From IMG/VR virus record IMGVR_UViG_3300025276_000270, positions 1 through 20,645 of that record: DNA of 20,645 nt; one strand, 5' to 3'. The translations under genes were made by a program, and so were the position numbers. This document shows, in pieces, positions 13,756-20,645 of this stretch; within the stretch, counting starts at the first letter, position 1, and the number at the start of each line of letters is the position of its first letter. The notes below the pieces were generated by a model. That model did not search any database, was not told where the DNA came from, and saw nothing but the letters and a program-made list of their open reading frames with translations. This stretch comes from a virus.

Positions 13756-14345
13756 TGGAACTAGTAAAAATCACAGAAGTAAAGGGCAATAAAGATAACC
13801 CTAGAATTATCAAAGACGCTAAATTTAAAAAGTTAGTACAAAGCATAAAGGACTTTCCAGAAATGCTTAAAATACGACCAATAGTAGTAAACGGAGAAAT
13901 GACTGTACTAGGAGGCAATATGCGATTAAAAGCTTGTCAACAGGCTGGGCTAAAGGAAGTCTGGATATTAAAAGCAGACAATTTAACTGAGGATCAACAA
14001 AAGGAATTCATAATAAAGGACAACTCTGGTTTTGGAGAATGGGACTGGGACACATTAGCAAATGAGTGGGACGTTGATAAACTAGAAGACTGGGGACTTG
14101 ATGTACCAAGCATAGAAGACTTTACTGGAGTTGAGGAACAAGAGATCGAGTTTAGCGAATATTTAGACGAGTCGCATAATTACGTTGTATTACTTTTTGA
14201 TTCGGAAGTAGATTGGCTATCAGCACAAACACATTTTGATATTAGCTCAGTACACTCAATGAGAGCGAATGGCAAACCTTGGTCTAAGGGCATAGGAAGG
14301 GTTTTAAATGGAGCTAAATATCTTAGAAGTATCAAAGATGAATAA
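13755..14345 (+). CDS. ParB-like (ParB/Srx-fold) protein
   Basis: 196 residues. Residues 1-95 hold the ParB N-terminal fold: NPRIIKDAKFKKLVQSIKDF (15-34), IRPIVVNGEMTVLGGNMRLKA (40-60) with the GGNMR loop, and IIKDNSGFGEWDWDTLANEW (86-105), a phage-type variant of the next segment. The C-terminal half (NYVVLLFDSEVDWLSAQTHF, SKGIGRVLNG) is a separate domain often seen in phage ParB-like proteins near terminases. Phage relatives act as nucleases or as partners in DNA base modification. It overlaps the first glycosyltransferase by eight bases. Confidence 0.75.
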   Translation: MELVKITEVKGNKDNPRIIKDAKFKKLVQSIKDFPEMLKIRPIVVNGEMTVLGGNMRLKACQQAGLKEVWILKADNLTEDQQKEFIIKDNSGFGEWDWDTLANEWDVDKLEDWGLDVPSIEDFTGVEEQEIEFSEYLDESHNYVVLLFDSEVDWLSAQTHFDISSVHSMRANGKPWSKGIGRVLNGAKYLRSIKDE

Positions 14346-15054
14346 CATATACATACCCTCTTACAATAGAGCTGACAATGTTAGAACATACGAGTATCTG
14401 GGTTGCGGTAAAATAATAGTACCTAAAAGCCAAGAGAGTGAATATAAAAAAAGATACGGAAATGCAGTGCAAAGTATTGAGGACAACAGAGACGGATCGG
14501 TTGCTAAAAAAAGAAATGCTATTTTAGATTTAATCAAAGAAGAGCAAAAGGACGGATATGGCTGGATAATAGACGATGACTTAGTAAAGGTTAAAAGAAA
14601 GAAAGAGGGCAATGATCTGGGGGGAGACGAAACATTAGAATTATTAGAAAAAATATACATAATGGCTAAAGACTCTGGTATTAAATATGCTGGAGTAGAT
14701 TACTCGCTTGACAATATGAAGCTAAAAGATTATCAGCCTTTCTCGTTTACTAAGGTTATTTTTGGAGGTACTTTGGTTTGCGAGAATGATGGACTTAGAT
14801 ATGACGAGAGATTTAAAATAAATGAAGACGTAGAGTTCTGGGTACAAAAGTTAAACTCAAATAGAAGGCTTTTAAAGGACAATCAATATGCAATGGTGTT
14901 CTACGGTCAAGACGGAGGCAAAGATAGTGTCATAGGCTATACAAATGACGATAGGAGGGTTTATGCTACTATGTTAAACAATAAGTGGGGAGAAAAAATA
15001 ATGAACTGGAACAAAACAAGGTTTGAATTTAAAATACCAATTAAAGGAGTATGA
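14338..15054 (+). CDS. Glycosyltransferase, TET-associated (TAGT)-like, copy 1
   Basis: The start chosen is ATG 14338, overlapping the ParB stop by eight bases; the alternative at 14308 adds ten residues of different character. The 238-residue product begins MNNIYIPSYNRADNVRTYEY, has a GWIIDDDLVKV segment (75-85) as the DxD metal site of GT-A enzymes, a FGGTLVCENDGLRYDERF stretch and KINEDVEFWVQKL as probable catalytic region. This resembles the TAGT family, which adds sugar to modified bases in phage DNA. It is a paralogue of the next gene, with shared opening and ending (IPIKGV / APIKGI). Confidence 0.65.
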   Translation: MNNIYIPSYNRADNVRTYEYLGCGKIIVPKSQESEYKKRYGNAVQSIEDNRDGSVAKKRNAILDLIKEEQKDGYGWIIDDDLVKVKRKKEGNDLGGDETLELLEKIYIMAKDSGIKYAGVDYSLDNMKLKDYQPFSFTKVIFGGTLVCENDGLRYDERFKINEDVEFWVQKLNSNRRLLKDNQYAMVFYGQDGGKDSVIGYTNDDRRVYATMLNNKWGEKIMNWNKTRFEFKIPIKGV

Positions 15055-15794
15055 ATATATATGCACCGAGTTACAAGAGAGCTAAGGGGGTTAAGACTCA
15101 CAGAATAATAAAAGACGTTATTTATTGCGTTCACGAGTTTGAAGCAGATGACTATAAGAAACTAGGGTACAACGTAGAGGTTATGCCAGATAGTATAAAA
15201 GGAAACATCGCTAGAGTCCGTAATTATATGCTTGACAATTATATAGGGGACAAGGGTTTGATAGTTGACGATGATCTGGAGGCTATAAAGCGTTGGAACG
15301 TAAAAGAAGGTAAGCCGAAACAAGAAACAATAAACAACATTACAGAATGGATAGAGCAAGGCTTTAATATGTGCGAAGAGGTCGGAGCTAAGTTATGGGG
15401 GGTTAACATTCTAGGGGACAAAGGTAGTTATAGAGAGTACTCGCCTTTTAGTTTGACTAATACGGTATCAGCATCTTTTATGGGTTTTCTAAATAACAAA
15501 CTAAGGTTTGACGAAAGACTACCACTAAAAGACGATTACGACTATTGCTTACAGAATCTAAATGAATACAGAAAAATACTAAGAATTAACTATGCTTGTC
15601 TAGTAAAGAAAGATCACGCCAACTTAGGAGGTTGTGCCGATTACAGAACAATGAGTAGAGAGAAGGATCAAATAAAACTAATGCAGAAAAAATGGGGGTC
15701 AAAAATTGTAAAGCTAGACACTACTCAGAGAGGCAAGAAAAAAAAGAACTTTGACTTAAACCCTATAATAAAAGCACCAATAAAAGGAATATAA
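15051..15794 (+). CDS. Glycosyltransferase, TET-associated (TAGT)-like, copy 2
   Basis: 247 residues, starting in an ATGA overlap with copy 1 and preceded by AAAGGAG. It opens MNIYAPSYKRAKGVKTHRII, then VIYCVHEFEADDYKK (23-37), VMPDSIKGNIARVRNYM (44-60) and GLIVDDDLEAI (69-79), the DxD site. The HEFEADDY, GN.ARVRN and VDDD elements look closer to canonical TAGT proteins than copy 1, in which the first is replaced by VPKSQESEYKK. Later come FDERLPLKDDYDYCLQNL and VKKDHANLGGC, which probably form the active-site base and acceptor pocket. The two copies may add different sugars or act in sequence. Confidence 0.7.
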   Translation: MNIYAPSYKRAKGVKTHRIIKDVIYCVHEFEADDYKKLGYNVEVMPDSIKGNIARVRNYMLDNYIGDKGLIVDDDLEAIKRWNVKEGKPKQETINNITEWIEQGFNMCEEVGAKLWGVNILGDKGSYREYSPFSLTNTVSASFMGFLNNKLRFDERLPLKDDYDYCLQNLNEYRKILRINYACLVKKDHANLGGCADYRTMSREKDQIKLMQKKWGSKIVKLDTTQRGKKKKNFDLNPIIKAPIKGI

Positions 15795-15795
15795 A

Positions 15796-16146
15796 ATGAA
15801 CAAAACCGAACAACATAAAAAGGCAATACTCGAAGCTTTAGAAAAACACTTAGGAATCGTTACAACGGCTTGTCGTACAGTTGGAGTAGGTAGGACTACT
15901 TTTTACGGCTGGTTAAATGATGACAAGAAGTTTGCTGAGAAAGTGGAGGACGTACAAAACATAGCTTTAGATTTTGCAGAGAGTCAATTACATAAACAAA
16001 TAGGAGACGGAAATACTTCGGCTACTATATTTTATTTAAAGACTAAAGGCAAGGGCAGAGGCTTTGTAGAGAGGCAAGAAATAACAGGAGCTAATGGTAT
16101 GCCAACTAATTTTCAAATTGAGATAATTGAGAATACCGAGGATTAA
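15796..16146 (+). CDS. terS: Terminase small subunit
   Basis: 116 residues. The N-terminal ~50 residues form a helix-turn-helix (ILEALEKHLGIVTTACRTVGV, GRTTFYGWLNDD), which would bind the packaging start site. A helical oligomerisation part (FAESQLHKQIGDGNTSATIF, YLKTKGKGRGFVERQ) follows, a frequent signature of small terminases in this phage group. Direct overlap with the large-subunit gene confirms the assignment. The start lies one base after the glycosyltransferase stop. Confidence 0.85.
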   Translation: MNKTEQHKKAILEALEKHLGIVTTACRTVGVGRTTFYGWLNDDKKFAEKVEDVQNIALDFAESQLHKQIGDGNTSATIFYLKTKGKGRGFVERQEITGANGMPTNFQIEIIENTED

Positions 16147-17290
16147 AACCAACGTAGTTTATAAGCACCTACTCAACAGTAAAAGCAAAATCGTAGTTGA
16201 ACAAGGTGGGACTAGGTCTGGAAAGACTTATAATATAATTCTATACATAATTTTTCAGTATTGCTTGAAGCATACAAAGAAGACTATTACTATCACTAGA
16301 AAAACCTTTCCTAGCGTTAGAGCTTCTGTAATGAGAGATTTTATTAGTATCTTAAAAGAGTACGATATATACAGAGAAGAGTATCACAACAAGTCCAATA
16401 GTGAATACTATCTAAACGGAAACTTAATAGAGTTTATTAGCGTAGATCAACCTCAAAAAATTAGAGGACGTAAAAGAGATTTACTATTCATAAACGAGGC
16501 TAATGAATTGGAGTTTGAAGACTGGCAACAGTTAATATTCAGAACTACCGATAAAATTATAATTGACTACAATCCCTCTGACGAGTATCACTGGATATAT
16601 GACAGAGTGTTGAATCGAGATGATGTTGAGTTTTACAGAACAACATATCTAGACAATCCTTTTTTAAATAGTAGTATAGTTGCTGAGATTGAAAGATTAA
16701 GAGAAACTGACGAACAGTACTGGCAAGTTTACGGACTAGGGTTAAAAGGAGTTAGCAAGTCTGTTATATTTACTCACAATGTAGTGGAGAAAGTTCCAGA
16801 AGATGCTAAGTTTATTTCTTTTGGCTTAGATTACGGATATACTAATGACCCTACTGCTTTAGTGGGCATCTGGATCAAAGACTATGATTTGTATATTAAA
16901 GAGTATTTATACCAGTCAATGATGACAGGACACGATATACACAAGAAGTTTAAAGACATCGGAATAGCAAGAGAACTAATCTGGGGGGACTCAGCAGAGC
17001 CTAGATTAAATGATGAGCTAAAGCGTATGGGTTGGAATGTAAGAGCTAGTATAAAAGGAAAGGACAGTGTAAATGCTGGGATCGACTTATTAAAGAGGTA
17101 TAAAATAAATATCACAAAGGATAGCTCAAATGCGATACAAGAGTTTAGGAATTACAAGTGGCTAGAGGACAAATCTGGAAACTTAACTAATAAGCCAGAG
17201 GATCGAAATAATCACATTATCGATGCGGTTAGATACGGAACTTATAGCATCATAAGTAAGCCAAACTTTGGCAAGTACACAATTTCATAA
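16127..17290 (+). CDS. terL: Terminase large subunit, non-ATG start
   Basis: About 387 residues. Walker A is GGTRSGKT (27-34), Walker B with catalytic Glu is DLLFINEANEL, and the nuclease domain shows FGLDYGYTNDPTAL, IWGDSAEPR and HIIDAVRYG with the three Asp residues that bind metal. It packages DNA into the capsid and cuts it. The frame is closed by TAA at 16124-16126, and no ATG or GTG exists before Walker A (the first ATG is about residue 70), so translation begins at TTG 16127, or less likely ATT 16142. It overlaps the small-subunit gene by 20 bases. Length and motifs suit the PBSX/Terminase_3 group. Confidence 0.92.
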   Translation: MRIPRIKTNVVYKHLLNSKSKIVVEQGGTRSGKTYNIILYIIFQYCLKHTKKTITITRKTFPSVRASVMRDFISILKEYDIYREEYHNKSNSEYYLNGNLIEFISVDQPQKIRGRKRDLLFINEANELEFEDWQQLIFRTTDKIIIDYNPSDEYHWIYDRVLNRDDVEFYRTTYLDNPFLNSSIVAEIERLRETDEQYWQVYGLGLKGVSKSVIFTHNVVEKVPEDAKFISFGLDYGYTNDPTALVGIWIKDYDLYIKEYLYQSMMTGHDIHKKFKDIGIARELIWGDSAEPRLNDELKRMGWNVRASIKGKDSVNAGIDLLKRYKINITKDSSNAIQEFRNYKWLEDKSGNLTNKPEDRNNHIIDAVRYGTYSIISKPNFGKYTIS

Positions 17291-17317: not shown

Positions 17318-17965
17318 ATGAACATTAAACTAAATGTACCAAACAAACTTAGTGAGATAGCATTGTCTGACTATGTGAAGTATTTAAAGATACTAGACAT
17401 TAATGAAGAAGACGAGAATAGCGATGTTTTTGTCCAGCAGAAAGTTCTGGAGATATTTTGCGGAGTGCCTTACAATGATTCGCTAGAGTTTAAAATGAGC
17501 GACGTTTCTAAGATTGTCAATGTAATAAATAACACACTAAGTGAAAAACCAGCATTAGTTAAGTCTTTTAAGCTGGGGGATACAGAGTTTGGCTTTATAC
17601 CTAAGCTGGACGATATGAGCTTTGGAGAATACATAGACGTTGATACAAACATAGGTGACTGGGACAATATGTACAGAGTTATGAGTGTTTTATATAGACC
17701 CATAAATCAGAAGAGTGGAGAGAAATATTTAATAGACGAATACAAAGGGGACTTGTATCACGATGCTATGAGGCATACACCAATGGACGCAGTTATTAGT
17801 AGCTTAGTTTTTTTTTACAATTTAGGCAAGGAGTTGTCGATGGCTATGATAAACTTTTTGGGGACGGAGACGGAGGAGGACTTGACGCAACATCAAATTT
17901 CAATGAGCGATACGGCTGGTATAACTCAATTCAGGCACTTGCTGAGTTCGATGTCCTTAAAATAG
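17318..17965 (+). CDS. Tail assembly chaperone, G-like (zero-frame product)
   Basis: 215 residues: LNVPNKLSEIALSDYVKYLK, QQKVLEIFCGVPYN, FGFIPKLDDMSFGEYIDVD, MYRVMSVLYRPINQ and SLVFFYNLGKEL. I recall this series of segments from tail proteins of Bacteroidota siphophages. The position (first tail gene after terminase) and the overlapping -1 frame with no start codon identify it as the equivalent of lambda G, which chaperones the tape measure during tail assembly. A minority of ribosomes would shift and make a 251-residue fusion ending at 18072. It starts 27 bases after terL with AT-rich sequence and no clear Shine-Dalgarno site. Confidence 0.75.
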   Translation: MNIKLNVPNKLSEIALSDYVKYLKILDINEEDENSDVFVQQKVLEIFCGVPYNDSLEFKMSDVSKIVNVINNTLSEKPALVKSFKLGDTEFGFIPKLDDMSFGEYIDVDTNIGDWDNMYRVMSVLYRPINQKSGEKYLIDEYKGDLYHDAMRHTPMDAVISSLVFFYNLGKELSMAMINFLGTETEEDLTQHQISMSDTAGITQFRHLLSSMSLK

Positions 17966-18072
17966 ATGAGGTCACGAGATTAAATGTTCATACGTGCTTA
18001 CACGCACTTAGTTATAAGAAAGAGAAAAACGAGCTAGAGAGTAGCAGAATAAAAAATAAATTTAACAAATGA
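17803..18072 (+). CDS. Tail assembly chaperone, T-like extension reached by -1 frameshift
   Basis: This frame opens after TAG 17800-17802 and runs to TGA 18070-18072, in the -1 frame of the G-like gene. It contains no ATG, GTG or TTG codon, so it cannot start on its own. The conserved-looking part is NFNERYGWYNSIQALAEFDV, EVTRLNVHTCLHALSYKKEK and a basic end (SSRIKNKFNK); the GWY-containing segment is familiar from tail genes of this phage group. Its TGA overlaps the next ATG (ATGA), as expected for a translated gene. By analogy with lambda GT, the fusion protein bridges the tape measure and the tail tube protein. Confidence 0.75.
   Translation, partial: LSFFLQFRQGVVDGYDKLFGDGDGGGLDATSNFNERYGWYNSIQALAEFDVLKIDEVTRLNVHTCLHALSYKKEKNELESSRIKNKFNK
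17857..17863 (+). other. Candidate -1 frameshift slippery heptamer T_TTG_GGG
   Basis: In the zero frame the codons are TTT TTG GGG ACG, giving the X_XXY_YYZ heptamer at 17857-17863. A shift here would keep the helix FFYNLGKELSMAMINFLG and join it to a Gly/Asp linker (DGDGGGLDATSN) before the T-like part. A second candidate is T_TTT_TTT at 17809-17815, within a run of nine T, just inside the overlap. A purine-rich stretch (17860-17880) directly follows the first site. No strong downstream hairpin was found by eye. Confidence 0.55.
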
Positions 18073-18548
18073 GTGCAATAGAACATAGAGGAGCGTATGC
18101 GTATTACGATGTATTGGAGAAGTTAAAAAATAACTTACTTTCAGACGTAAACATTAATACAGTTACAGAGGGCGATATAACACAAGTTAATTTAAACAAA
18201 CAAGACATATTCCCACTGTCGCATATAATGGTTAATAGCGTTGCTGAGAACGGACAAGTAATGACGTTTAACGTTAGTGTTATGGCTATGGATATCGTGG
18301 ACGTGAGCAAGGCTAAGACGGTTGATATATTCAGAGGTAACGACAATGAGCAAGATGTTTTAAACACACAGTTAGCGGTATTAAATAAATTCTTGCAACA
18401 GTTAAGAAAAGGCAACCTACACTTTGACGGTTACCACTTAGAAAGTAGTGTAAACTTAGAGCCGTTTAGAGATAGGTTTGAGAACCAAGTCGCTGGGTGG
18501 GTAGCAACGTTTAGTCTGGTAGTTATGAATAACATAGACGCTTGTTAA
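18069..18548 (+). CDS. Tail protein, probable tail terminator or neck component
   Basis: 159 residues: AYYDVLEKLKNNLLSDVNIN, VNLNKQDIFPLSHIMVNSVA, FNVSVMAMDIVDVSK, FRGNDNEQDVLNTQLAVLNK, then LRKGNLHFDGY and NQVAGWVATFSLVV. The central GNDNEQDVLNTQLAVLN segment is familiar to me from Bacteroidota siphophages. The alpha/beta layout with a final strand (GWVATFSLVVMNN) is like tail terminator proteins (lambda gpU, HK97 gp10 neighbours), which stop tube growth. It is translationally coupled to the frameshift ORF. Tail role is supported by context; the exact part is inferred. Confidence 0.6.
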   Translation: MSAIEHRGAYAYYDVLEKLKNNLLSDVNINTVTEGDITQVNLNKQDIFPLSHIMVNSVAENGQVMTFNVSVMAMDIVDVSKAKTVDIFRGNDNEQDVLNTQLAVLNKFLQQLRKGNLHFDGYHLESSVNLEPFRDRFENQVAGWVATFSLVVMNNIDAC

Positions 18549-18549
18549 A

Positions 18550-19062
18550 ATGACATACAAGAATTTAAAGGAAGCGTTAGCAGAAGTAAGAGACCTTATA
18601 GTCAAGGAGTCTAAAGAGAATTTAATCGCTGCAAAAAAGGGCGGAGGAGCTTTAGAGGACAGTATTAAGGGTACGCCAGTAAGTGAAAGTGGCAGCTCTT
18701 TGATGTTTCAGATTTTAATGGAAGACTACGCTACATTTGTAGATAAGGGAGTCAGTGGAACGAAGATTAAATACGATACTCCGTACTCATATACGGATAA
18801 AATGCCACCTCCTAGTGCGTTAGACAAATGGACTGTTAGAAAGGGCATAGCACCGAGAGATGATAAAGGAAGGTTTATGTCAAGAAAGACTTTGCAATTC
18901 TTAATAGCTAGATCTATTTACAGAGACGGTATTAAACCAAGTCTATTTTATACAGAGCCGTATCATAAATATTTAAAAAACATAAGCAAGAGGCTGGAGA
19001 AGTCTTACAGAGTTGATGTTAGAGATTTCACTGACTTTACAATAAAACAAACACAGAAATAA
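18550..19062 (+). CDS. HK97 gp10-like tail completion / neck protein
   Basis: 170 residues. Residues ~10-70 (VRDLIVKESKENLIAAKKGG, ALEDSIKG, YATFVDKGVSGTK) resemble HK97 gp10-type proteins, whose signature is a helix followed by Y..FV..G. The remainder (YSYTDKMPPPSALDKW, IAPRDDKGRFMSRKTLQFL, ARSIYRDGIKPSLFYTEPY) includes a loop with a PPPS turn and a basic patch found in the phage version of this family. It probably joins the head to the tail tube or completes the tail. It lies one base after the previous stop and one before the next start. Confidence 0.65.
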   Translation: MTYKNLKEALAEVRDLIVKESKENLIAAKKGGGALEDSIKGTPVSESGSSLMFQILMEDYATFVDKGVSGTKIKYDTPYSYTDKMPPPSALDKWTVRKGIAPRDDKGRFMSRKTLQFLIARSIYRDGIKPSLFYTEPYHKYLKNISKRLEKSYRVDVRDFTDFTIKQTQK

Positions 19063-19063
19063 A

Positions 19064-20176
19064 ATGGCAAAAATTAATGTAAGAAGTCCTTACTATGTAT
19101 ATTTAAACGAAACTAAATTAACATTTGCTTCTATTAAAATATGGATATATACAGGAACGTATGGAAGCAGACCAACTCTTGAAACCTACAACCTAAGTGC
19201 TTTAGCGGTAAACAATACAGTAAACTTTGAGATTGCTGAGCTTGTTAGAGATTATATAACTTATAACGCTGATGACTACGAAACAGAAATAGTCTGGGTT
19301 GATTATGAAATAACGAAGATTGTTGCTGGAGCTGAAACTACGCTACCTATCGTGCGTAACAGAGGGTTTTATGGTTATGGTTATTTTGAGCAAGGAGTAA
19401 ATCCACAAAATGATTCTGGTTTATTACAGTCTAATTTAACAATAGTAAAGCTAGATGATGCACCTGTTTATTTGCCTGTTGATACTAACAAAGTATCCAA
19501 CGTATATTTTTATTCAAATGGTGAGCAGATATATGAAAAAAACTTTAGTGTAACAACTGGGTCATCAACTCAAATACAATATGTAACCAATACAATAAAC
19601 CCAGCAGATGAGTTTGAAGAGAGGGTTTTAAATGATGGGGGTACTTTTGAAGGTAGCCTATGCTTAAATCAGTTCTTAGATAGTACGGCTTTGTTTCCTG
19701 TTGATACTATATACGTAAACTCAATAGGTGGAAGCGTTGATTTAATCAAAGTAGATAATATTGAAGAGTGTAAATATGAGCCTTACAAATTAAGTTTTAT
19801 AAACAAGTTTGGAGCTTTACAAGATATATGGTTTTTTAAACGAAGCAATAAACAACTATCAACTAAAGCAGAAGATTTCAAAAGAAATACACTTGTAGCG
19901 AATAGCTATGCAGTAGATAAGCATCAGACAAAAAACCTATATAAAATGGGTACTGAAAAAATGGACTTAAATACTGGCTTTTATCCAGAAGCATACAACG
20001 AAGTCTTTAAGCAAATGCAATTAAGCGAAGACTGTTGGATTGAAATAGGTGGGAATGTTTTACCAGTAAATGTAACAGATTCTAGCTTCAGTTATAAAAC
20101 TAGTCTTAACGACAAGCTAATTAATTACACCATAAAAATAGACTTTGCTTTTGACACTATAAACAATATTAGATAG
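19064..20176 (+). CDS. Tail structural protein, unknown specific role (370 aa)
   Basis: 370 residues, beta-rich throughout (YYVYLNETKLTFASIKIWIY, LPIVRNRGFYGYGYFEQG, DTIYVNSIGGSVDLIKVDN), with a basic middle segment, LSFINKFGALQDIWFFKR. It has no cysteine-rich region or signal peptide. The segment GALQDIWFFKR and the later KQMQLSEDCWIEIGG look familiar as parts of a conserved tail protein of Bacteroidota siphophages. Position within the tail block suggests a tube, baseplate or adhesion component. It ends directly against the next start (TAG-ATG). Confidence 0.6.
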   Translation: MAKINVRSPYYVYLNETKLTFASIKIWIYTGTYGSRPTLETYNLSALAVNNTVNFEIAELVRDYITYNADDYETEIVWVDYEITKIVAGAETTLPIVRNRGFYGYGYFEQGVNPQNDSGLLQSNLTIVKLDDAPVYLPVDTNKVSNVYFYSNGEQIYEKNFSVTTGSSTQIQYVTNTINPADEFEERVLNDGGTFEGSLCLNQFLDSTALFPVDTIYVNSIGGSVDLIKVDNIEECKYEPYKLSFINKFGALQDIWFFKRSNKQLSTKAEDFKRNTLVANSYAVDKHQTKNLYKMGTEKMDLNTGFYPEAYNEVFKQMQLSEDCWIEIGGNVLPVNVTDSSFSYKTSLNDKLINYTIKIDFAFDTINNIR

Positions 20177-20645
20177 ATGCAGATAATAGACTTATATATT
20201 AGAGGTGGTAATAAATTTACTAGCGTGGGTTACTTTCCATCATCGACTAGGCTTGTAGATACTTCAACAGATTTCACAAATGGGAACTTTAGTGTAGGAC
20301 AAATCATCAAAGATATATCAACAGGAATTGAAGGAAAGATTACTGCAATAGCTCCAAGCGGAAACGACACTCTGGATATTGATGGAGGTATATTTTCTGG
20401 GACTAAAACATATGAAATCTATGATGACTTTACAAAGCTAGAATTATTTAATGACGAGAGCGTTTCAATTACTGACACGATTCAGAATGTAAAAGACCCA
20501 GCTAAGATATTTGCACCCTTTAGCCAACAGTTTAGCGTTCCAGCTTCTAAGCACAATAATAAGTTTTTCAAGCATTACTATGATGTGGACGTTAATAATA
20601 GTTTTGATGCTAGGTATCAAGGCGATGGACTTATTCAGCTAAATG
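20177..20645 (+). CDS. Tail/baseplate protein, 3'-truncated by window end
   Basis: The reading frame opens at ATG 20177, immediately after the previous stop, and runs off the window after 156 codons. The visible part has beta-rich sequence (MQIIDLYIRGGNKFTSVGYF, IIKDISTGIEGKITAIAPSG) and then LELFNDESVSITDTIQNVKD followed by FAPFSQQFSVPASKHNNKFF. The 'LFNDE...FSVPAS..N...F' segment is one I associate with a large tail or baseplate protein found downstream of the preceding gene in Bacteroidota phages. Function beyond a tail component is not clear. Confidence 0.65.
   Translation, partial: MQIIDLYIRGGNKFTSVGYFPSSTRLVDTSTDFTNGNFSVGQIIKDISTGIEGKITAIAPSGNDTLDIDGGIFSGTKTYEIYDDFTKLELFNDESVSITDTIQNVKDPAKIFAPFSQQFSVPASKHNNKFFKHYYDVDVNNSFDARYQGDGLIQLN

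Follow-up and report, generated by a model that had tools for sequence, protein, structure and literature searches.

The window, a term that here denotes the whole 20.6-kb virus record that was analysed, stems from a marine Bacteroidota phage and contains a gene whose expression by frameshift is strongly supported by sequence comparison. We consider it somewhat probable that this is a two-product gene of the G/GT type, in which the shift proceeds mostly via slippage of RNA polymerase at an uninterrupted tract of nine thymines (T9, 17808–17816, plus strand). A constraint on the length of this tract is shown by the comparison of its relatives, and it is from such patterns in the sequence that RNA polymerase emerges as the putative main agent. 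In the proposed mechanism, unshifted reading would yield a G-like protein of 215 residues. A polymerase slipping on the nine T's would add one U to the mRNA, and on such a transcript the ribosome would read normally into the -1 frame to produce a fusion of 251 residues, by which a minority of the products would gain a helical T-like C-terminal domain. The same fusion would result from a -1 slip of the ribosome on U_UUU_UUU, and both agents may contribute.

Gene layout and relatives

The gene is located on the plus strand directly downstream of the terminase large subunit (16127–17290; Terminase_3, 9.2e-25). Its zero-frame, G-like reading frame (17318–17965) extends from an ATG at 17318 to a stop at 17963–17965 and encodes the 215-residue product of unshifted reading, the predicted N-terminal part of a tail assembly chaperone, which matches phrog_32199 (2e-16) and is kept across a 53-member alignment (A3). 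The T-like open frame (17803–18072, plus strand) comprises 90 codons including the TGA at 18070–18072 (89 without it), overlaps the zero frame by 163 nt and ends in an ATGA at 18069 that contains the start of the next gene (18069–18548, plus strand; 159 residues, phrog_30964). Read over its entire length, this frame contains no ATG, GTG or TTG. Its translated part starts at the T tract (17809 onwards) and includes a conserved GWY core. The earlier note had described this start-less frame with its overlap and its ATGA junction, correctly on each of these points. Reading through both parts (17318–18072, plus strand), either with one U gained or with a -1 slip of the ribosome at the tract, would give a fusion of 28.8 kDa with the junction peptide HTPMDAVISSLVFFLQFR, and the loss of one U is computed to give a truncated protein of 168 residues that would terminate in FFTI.

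Other features of the window include a portal-like protein with a DUF3721 segment (1–1227; PF12518, 4.5e-9) and two tandem paralogous TET-associated glycosyltransferases (14308–15054 and 15051–15794; PF20691, 2.5e-14 and 6e-11), near which a ParB-like gene and a C5 methylase gene are found. The neighbourhood of the PF20691 pair and the methylase possibly relates to DNA base modification; a 2OGFeDO oxygenase of the TET/JBP type is annotated in the Nonlabens phage P12024L and none was seen in the window.

Relatives were collected from viral contigs, bacterial genomes, a phage collection and genome searches. Both parts are present in 433 of 435 usable loci, and in each of these 433 the second part is in register -1 relative to the first, with a T tract at the same point. 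The loci represent 363 distinct sequences, which group into 141 lineages at less than 70% identity, 84 at less than 60% and 43 at less than 50%; counts by lineage provide a partial phylogenetic correction, and the results were recalculated at each of these three cut-offs. Cultured relatives are the Nonlabens phages P12024L and P12024S (Inhavirus), which share the gene order, the T9 tract and the -1 relation of the two parts (gp40/gp41 and gp38/gp39), whereas their proteins are only about 27% identical and are deposited as two separate hypothetical proteins. A survey of 400 genomes at the level of the Flavobacteriaceae and 396 at the level of the phylum returned only two new matches, one of them in a 3.9 Mb contig, where the copy lies between a terminase gene and a gene resembling a tape measure and is probably a prophage. 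Two further records, 66–67 kb 'plasmids' of Lysinibacillus (CP045836.1) and Escherichia fergusonii (NZ_CP040811.1), carry near-alike copies of a relative of the window phage, in which frames are broken and each record is matched twice; an assembly of phage long reads without error correction has probably contaminated both records. Their tracts of T8 and shorter were excluded since their frames are also broken elsewhere, as in uncorrected long reads.

Site of the frame change and dual coding

The position of the shift is reflected in the conservation of the -1 protein, which is kept from the first residue at the T tract with the pattern FFLxFRxRxxxxYDxLFG followed by the GWY core. Few parts of the second domain are as strongly conserved as the segment FFLxFRxRxxxxYDxLF. 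Conservation thus starts exactly at the T run, as emerged from the alignment of homologues in both frames that the earlier note had proposed, and this fixes the shift at the tract (17808–17816). Two heptamers in the window are in zero-frame phase, T_TTT_TTT at 17809–17815 and T_TTG_GGG at 17857–17863, and a fusion of 251 residues would result from either. The latter had been preferred in the earlier note, and we now assign next to no probability to a ribosomal frameshift at this site. It is present in the window and in two very close relatives and qualifies as slippery in just 16 of the 363 distinct relatives (not in the other 347), and with a slip there the conserved -1 stretch FFLxFRxR...YDxLF would not be translated; the heptamer is not conserved and probably unused. 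It is instead the second choice of that note, T_TTT_TTT, that lies within the conserved T9 tract, which the note had left unmentioned.

It is also very improbable that the -1 frame has a start of its own and forms an independent gene, which is how gp41 and gp39 of the Nonlabens phages are annotated. The deposited annotation uses an internal ATG, and an ATG is found there in 26 of the 363 relatives, whereas 223 of the 363 lack ATG, GTG and TTG ahead of the core of the domain and conservation reaches the T tract, upstream of any start. Remote structural relatives in BFVD (among them A0A516L611, 258 residues, and A0A6J5N0W0, 267 residues) match both parts in what appear to be single proteins. In the window the -1 frame is start-less, and all 433 two-part loci show the -1 relation, a consistency not attributable to chance.

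Past the tract, the zero frame of the relatives continues over about 55 codons (median). Within this overlap, 150 close pairs show 99 changes that are silent in both frames compared to 22.7 expected, and 1380 changes that alter both proteins compared to 1831 expected. This excess and this deficit indicate that both frames are under selection, and the stretch at 17817–17965 (plus strand) of the window is thus dual coding, with the C-terminal tail of the zero-frame product and the -1 domain both subject to purifying selection.

Constraint on the tract and the agent of the shift

A ribosomal heptamer requires no more than seven T's, whereas the run in this gene counts at least nine in 432 of the 433 loci (9 in 342 loci, 10 in 88, and 11, 12 and 8 in one each). 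Across lineages the tract is found in all three codon phases, with T's on its 5' and 3' sides compensating for each other, as illustrated by GTT TTT TTT TAC, GGT TTT TTT TTG and GTC TTT TTT TTT CTG. Where GGT, GCT or AGT precedes two TTT codons, the codon that follows is TTG or TTC; where there are three TTT codons, it may be CTG or GTG; and where GTT, CTT or ATT precedes, it starts with T, except in L396. The latter is the sole T8 locus (GTT TTT TTT CAG), with its heptamer intact. If the flanks were independent, runs shorter than nine would be expected in 7.6 of the 43 lineages at less than 50% identity compared to the one observed, and none of 10,000 shuffles was as low.

A second pronounced feature concerns the last base of the in-phase T_TTT_TTT heptamer, which is itself present in all loci. 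This base, the third of the second Phe codon, is C in none of the 96 lineages where such a change would be silent in both frames (0 of 27 at 50% identity), whereas equivalent silent sites of the overlap carry C in 50 of 134 cases, or 37% (13 of 39, 33%, at 50% identity). A potential source of bias is that the search patterns of two scans (A1 and A7) included the junction Phe-Phe, although these allowed both TTC and TTT; those of the other scans were clear of the junction. Elsewhere in 570 kb from 86 lineages, coding sequence contains 46 runs of T7 and four of T8 and no T run of nine or more; longer T runs in these phages are intergenic, many of them following a terminator-like inverted repeat. 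No excess of downstream RNA structure was detected in 86 lineages, with a mean z of 0.07 in a model that does not cover pseudoknots.

The selection on tract length, the lack of a silent C and the lack of downstream structure are together better explained by polymerase slippage than by ribosomal frameshifting alone, and transcriptional over ribosomal slippage at the same site is therefore moderately favoured. Insertion of one U leads exactly into the -1 frame. On nine consecutive A or T residues, slippage of bacterial RNA polymerase is efficient (reviewed in PMC5009743). For the E. coli enzyme, T runs are more slippery than A runs, and it inserts bases about three times as often as it deletes them (PMC6260861). 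Ribosomes in E. coli are prone to shift on the heptamer U_UUU_UUC, of which IS elements make use (PMC4066793), and a C at the end of the heptamer would thus be expected to be allowed if ribosomal slippage alone were at work. Several observations weigh against slippage of the polymerase. Every T9 also holds the in-phase U_UUU_UUU, one locus (L396) has a T8, runs of nine to ten A's are tolerated in coding sequence of the same phages, and the direction of the shift is always -1 (433/433) with no variation between orthologues, a constancy that by a published rule is a sign of ribosomal shifting (PMC3711429). We think that this rule is weak in the present case because the two domains overlap in a fixed register, and dual coding over about 50 codons would lock the direction either way. 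Even so, the constancy of direction remains a point against slippage.

The main alternative, which we regard as the less probable one though far from negligible, is classic ribosomal -1 frameshifting on U_UUU_UUU (17809–17815), as in lambda G/GT with a different heptamer, in which case the length of the tract would be a by-product of flanking hydrophobic or aromatic residues. It would account for the heptamer in phase in every locus and for the invariant direction, and it agrees with the ribosomal shifting used by known chaperones (PMC5009743) and with the above-background shifting on U_UUU_UUU in E. coli (PMC4066793), although the latter is much less than on A_AAA_AAG (PMC5009743). However, it leaves unexplained why the run measures at least nine whatever the flanking residues, why T's on the 5' and 3' sides compensate for each other, why U_UUU_UUC is absent and why downstream structure, pseudoknots being outside the model, was not detected. 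Of the ribosomal frameshifting assumed in the earlier note, the -1 shift is upheld; as to its agent, the evolutionary pattern points at least equally to transcriptional slippage.

Slippage by the polymerase as the prevailing agent would relate this gene to known cases of programmed transcriptional slippage, namely Thermus dnaX (a 9-nt homopolymer), Shigella mxiE and Citrobacter tssM1 (A11), with which it shares an uninterrupted homopolymer kept at nine or more, the lack of a detected stimulatory structure and two length variants. Unlike these cellular genes, it is a phage assembly gene with a fixed direction of the shift, for which slippage is proposed from sequence. We found no description of slippage by a Bacteroidota RNA polymerase in the literature searched.

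Identity of the protein and implications

The gene probably encodes a G/GT-type tail assembly chaperone that would link tape measure and tail tube, a reading of the earlier note that is upheld by the two-product design and the gene context. Its G-like part is predicted by AF2 to fold with good confidence (pLDDT 83.5) and its T-like part to form four helices with moderate confidence (pLDDT 70). The PDB contains no match in fold or sequence and Pfam none for the chaperone-like gene. In BFVD, the G-like part matches uncharacterised phage proteins, with named tail assembly chaperones only below threshold (E 0.2–0.5), and several uncharacterised viral proteins of 234–267 residues match the models of both parts, which suggests that they are a natural one-frame fusion. 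Gp10 of Flavobacterium phage 6H, a weak fold match, contains TTTTTTC near its end followed by an immediate stop in the -1 frame and was not used.

A tail chaperone gene directly before the tape-measure gene is the usual arrangement, although not a universal one. In relatives, a tape-measure gene, which had been anticipated within a few kb and would lie past the end of the window, was found 4.5–5 kb downstream (L161: phrog_1533, 1e-50, and PF10145, 5.6e-30; L108: phrog_24676, 2.9e-17), separated from the chaperone-like gene by four genes. This order, with the chaperone-like gene after the terminase and four genes before the tape measure, is unusual (window 17318–20645, L108 and L161). Together with the lack of a significant match in fold or sequence to a named chaperone, such a position would be compatible with a real frameshift in another assembly factor of two forms. 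We consider this unlikely in light of the -1 design with two products, the small helical C-terminal domain, the presence of a tape measure in these phages and a weak match to tail proteins (phrog_166, four members).

Frameshifting in tail chaperones is well known, and that of the lambda type serves as a model of ribosomal recoding and as a standard aid in annotation. With lambda G/GT and its HK97-type relatives, the gene shares a short upstream product, a product extended in the -1 frame, overlapping frames and a tailed phage with a tape measure. In contrast to lambda, where the heptamer is G_GGA_AAG, the site is a T9–10 tract after which some 50 codons are truly dual coding, the gene is set apart from the tape measure and there is no detectable sequence similarity. 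In the literature searched, which mostly comprised papers accessible without subscription, we found neither the T9–10 site nor the constraint on its length nor the likely mechanism of slippage, and their novelty is thus provisional.

Collectively, the balance of the evidence tips slightly towards a large clade of siphovirus-like phages of Bacteroidota in which the ratio of the chaperone products would be set not by the ribosome but by slippage of the polymerase on a T tract close in length to the 9–10 bp RNA:DNA hybrid of this enzyme. If so, tools for annotation that consider only heptamers would misplace the site and mispredict the protein in this clade, and the genomes of P12024L and P12024S already list its two parts as separate proteins. 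Transcriptional slippage would then decode a tail assembly chaperone, a case of which we found no description, and the gene would provide a natural system for slippage by the RNA polymerase of Bacteroidota.
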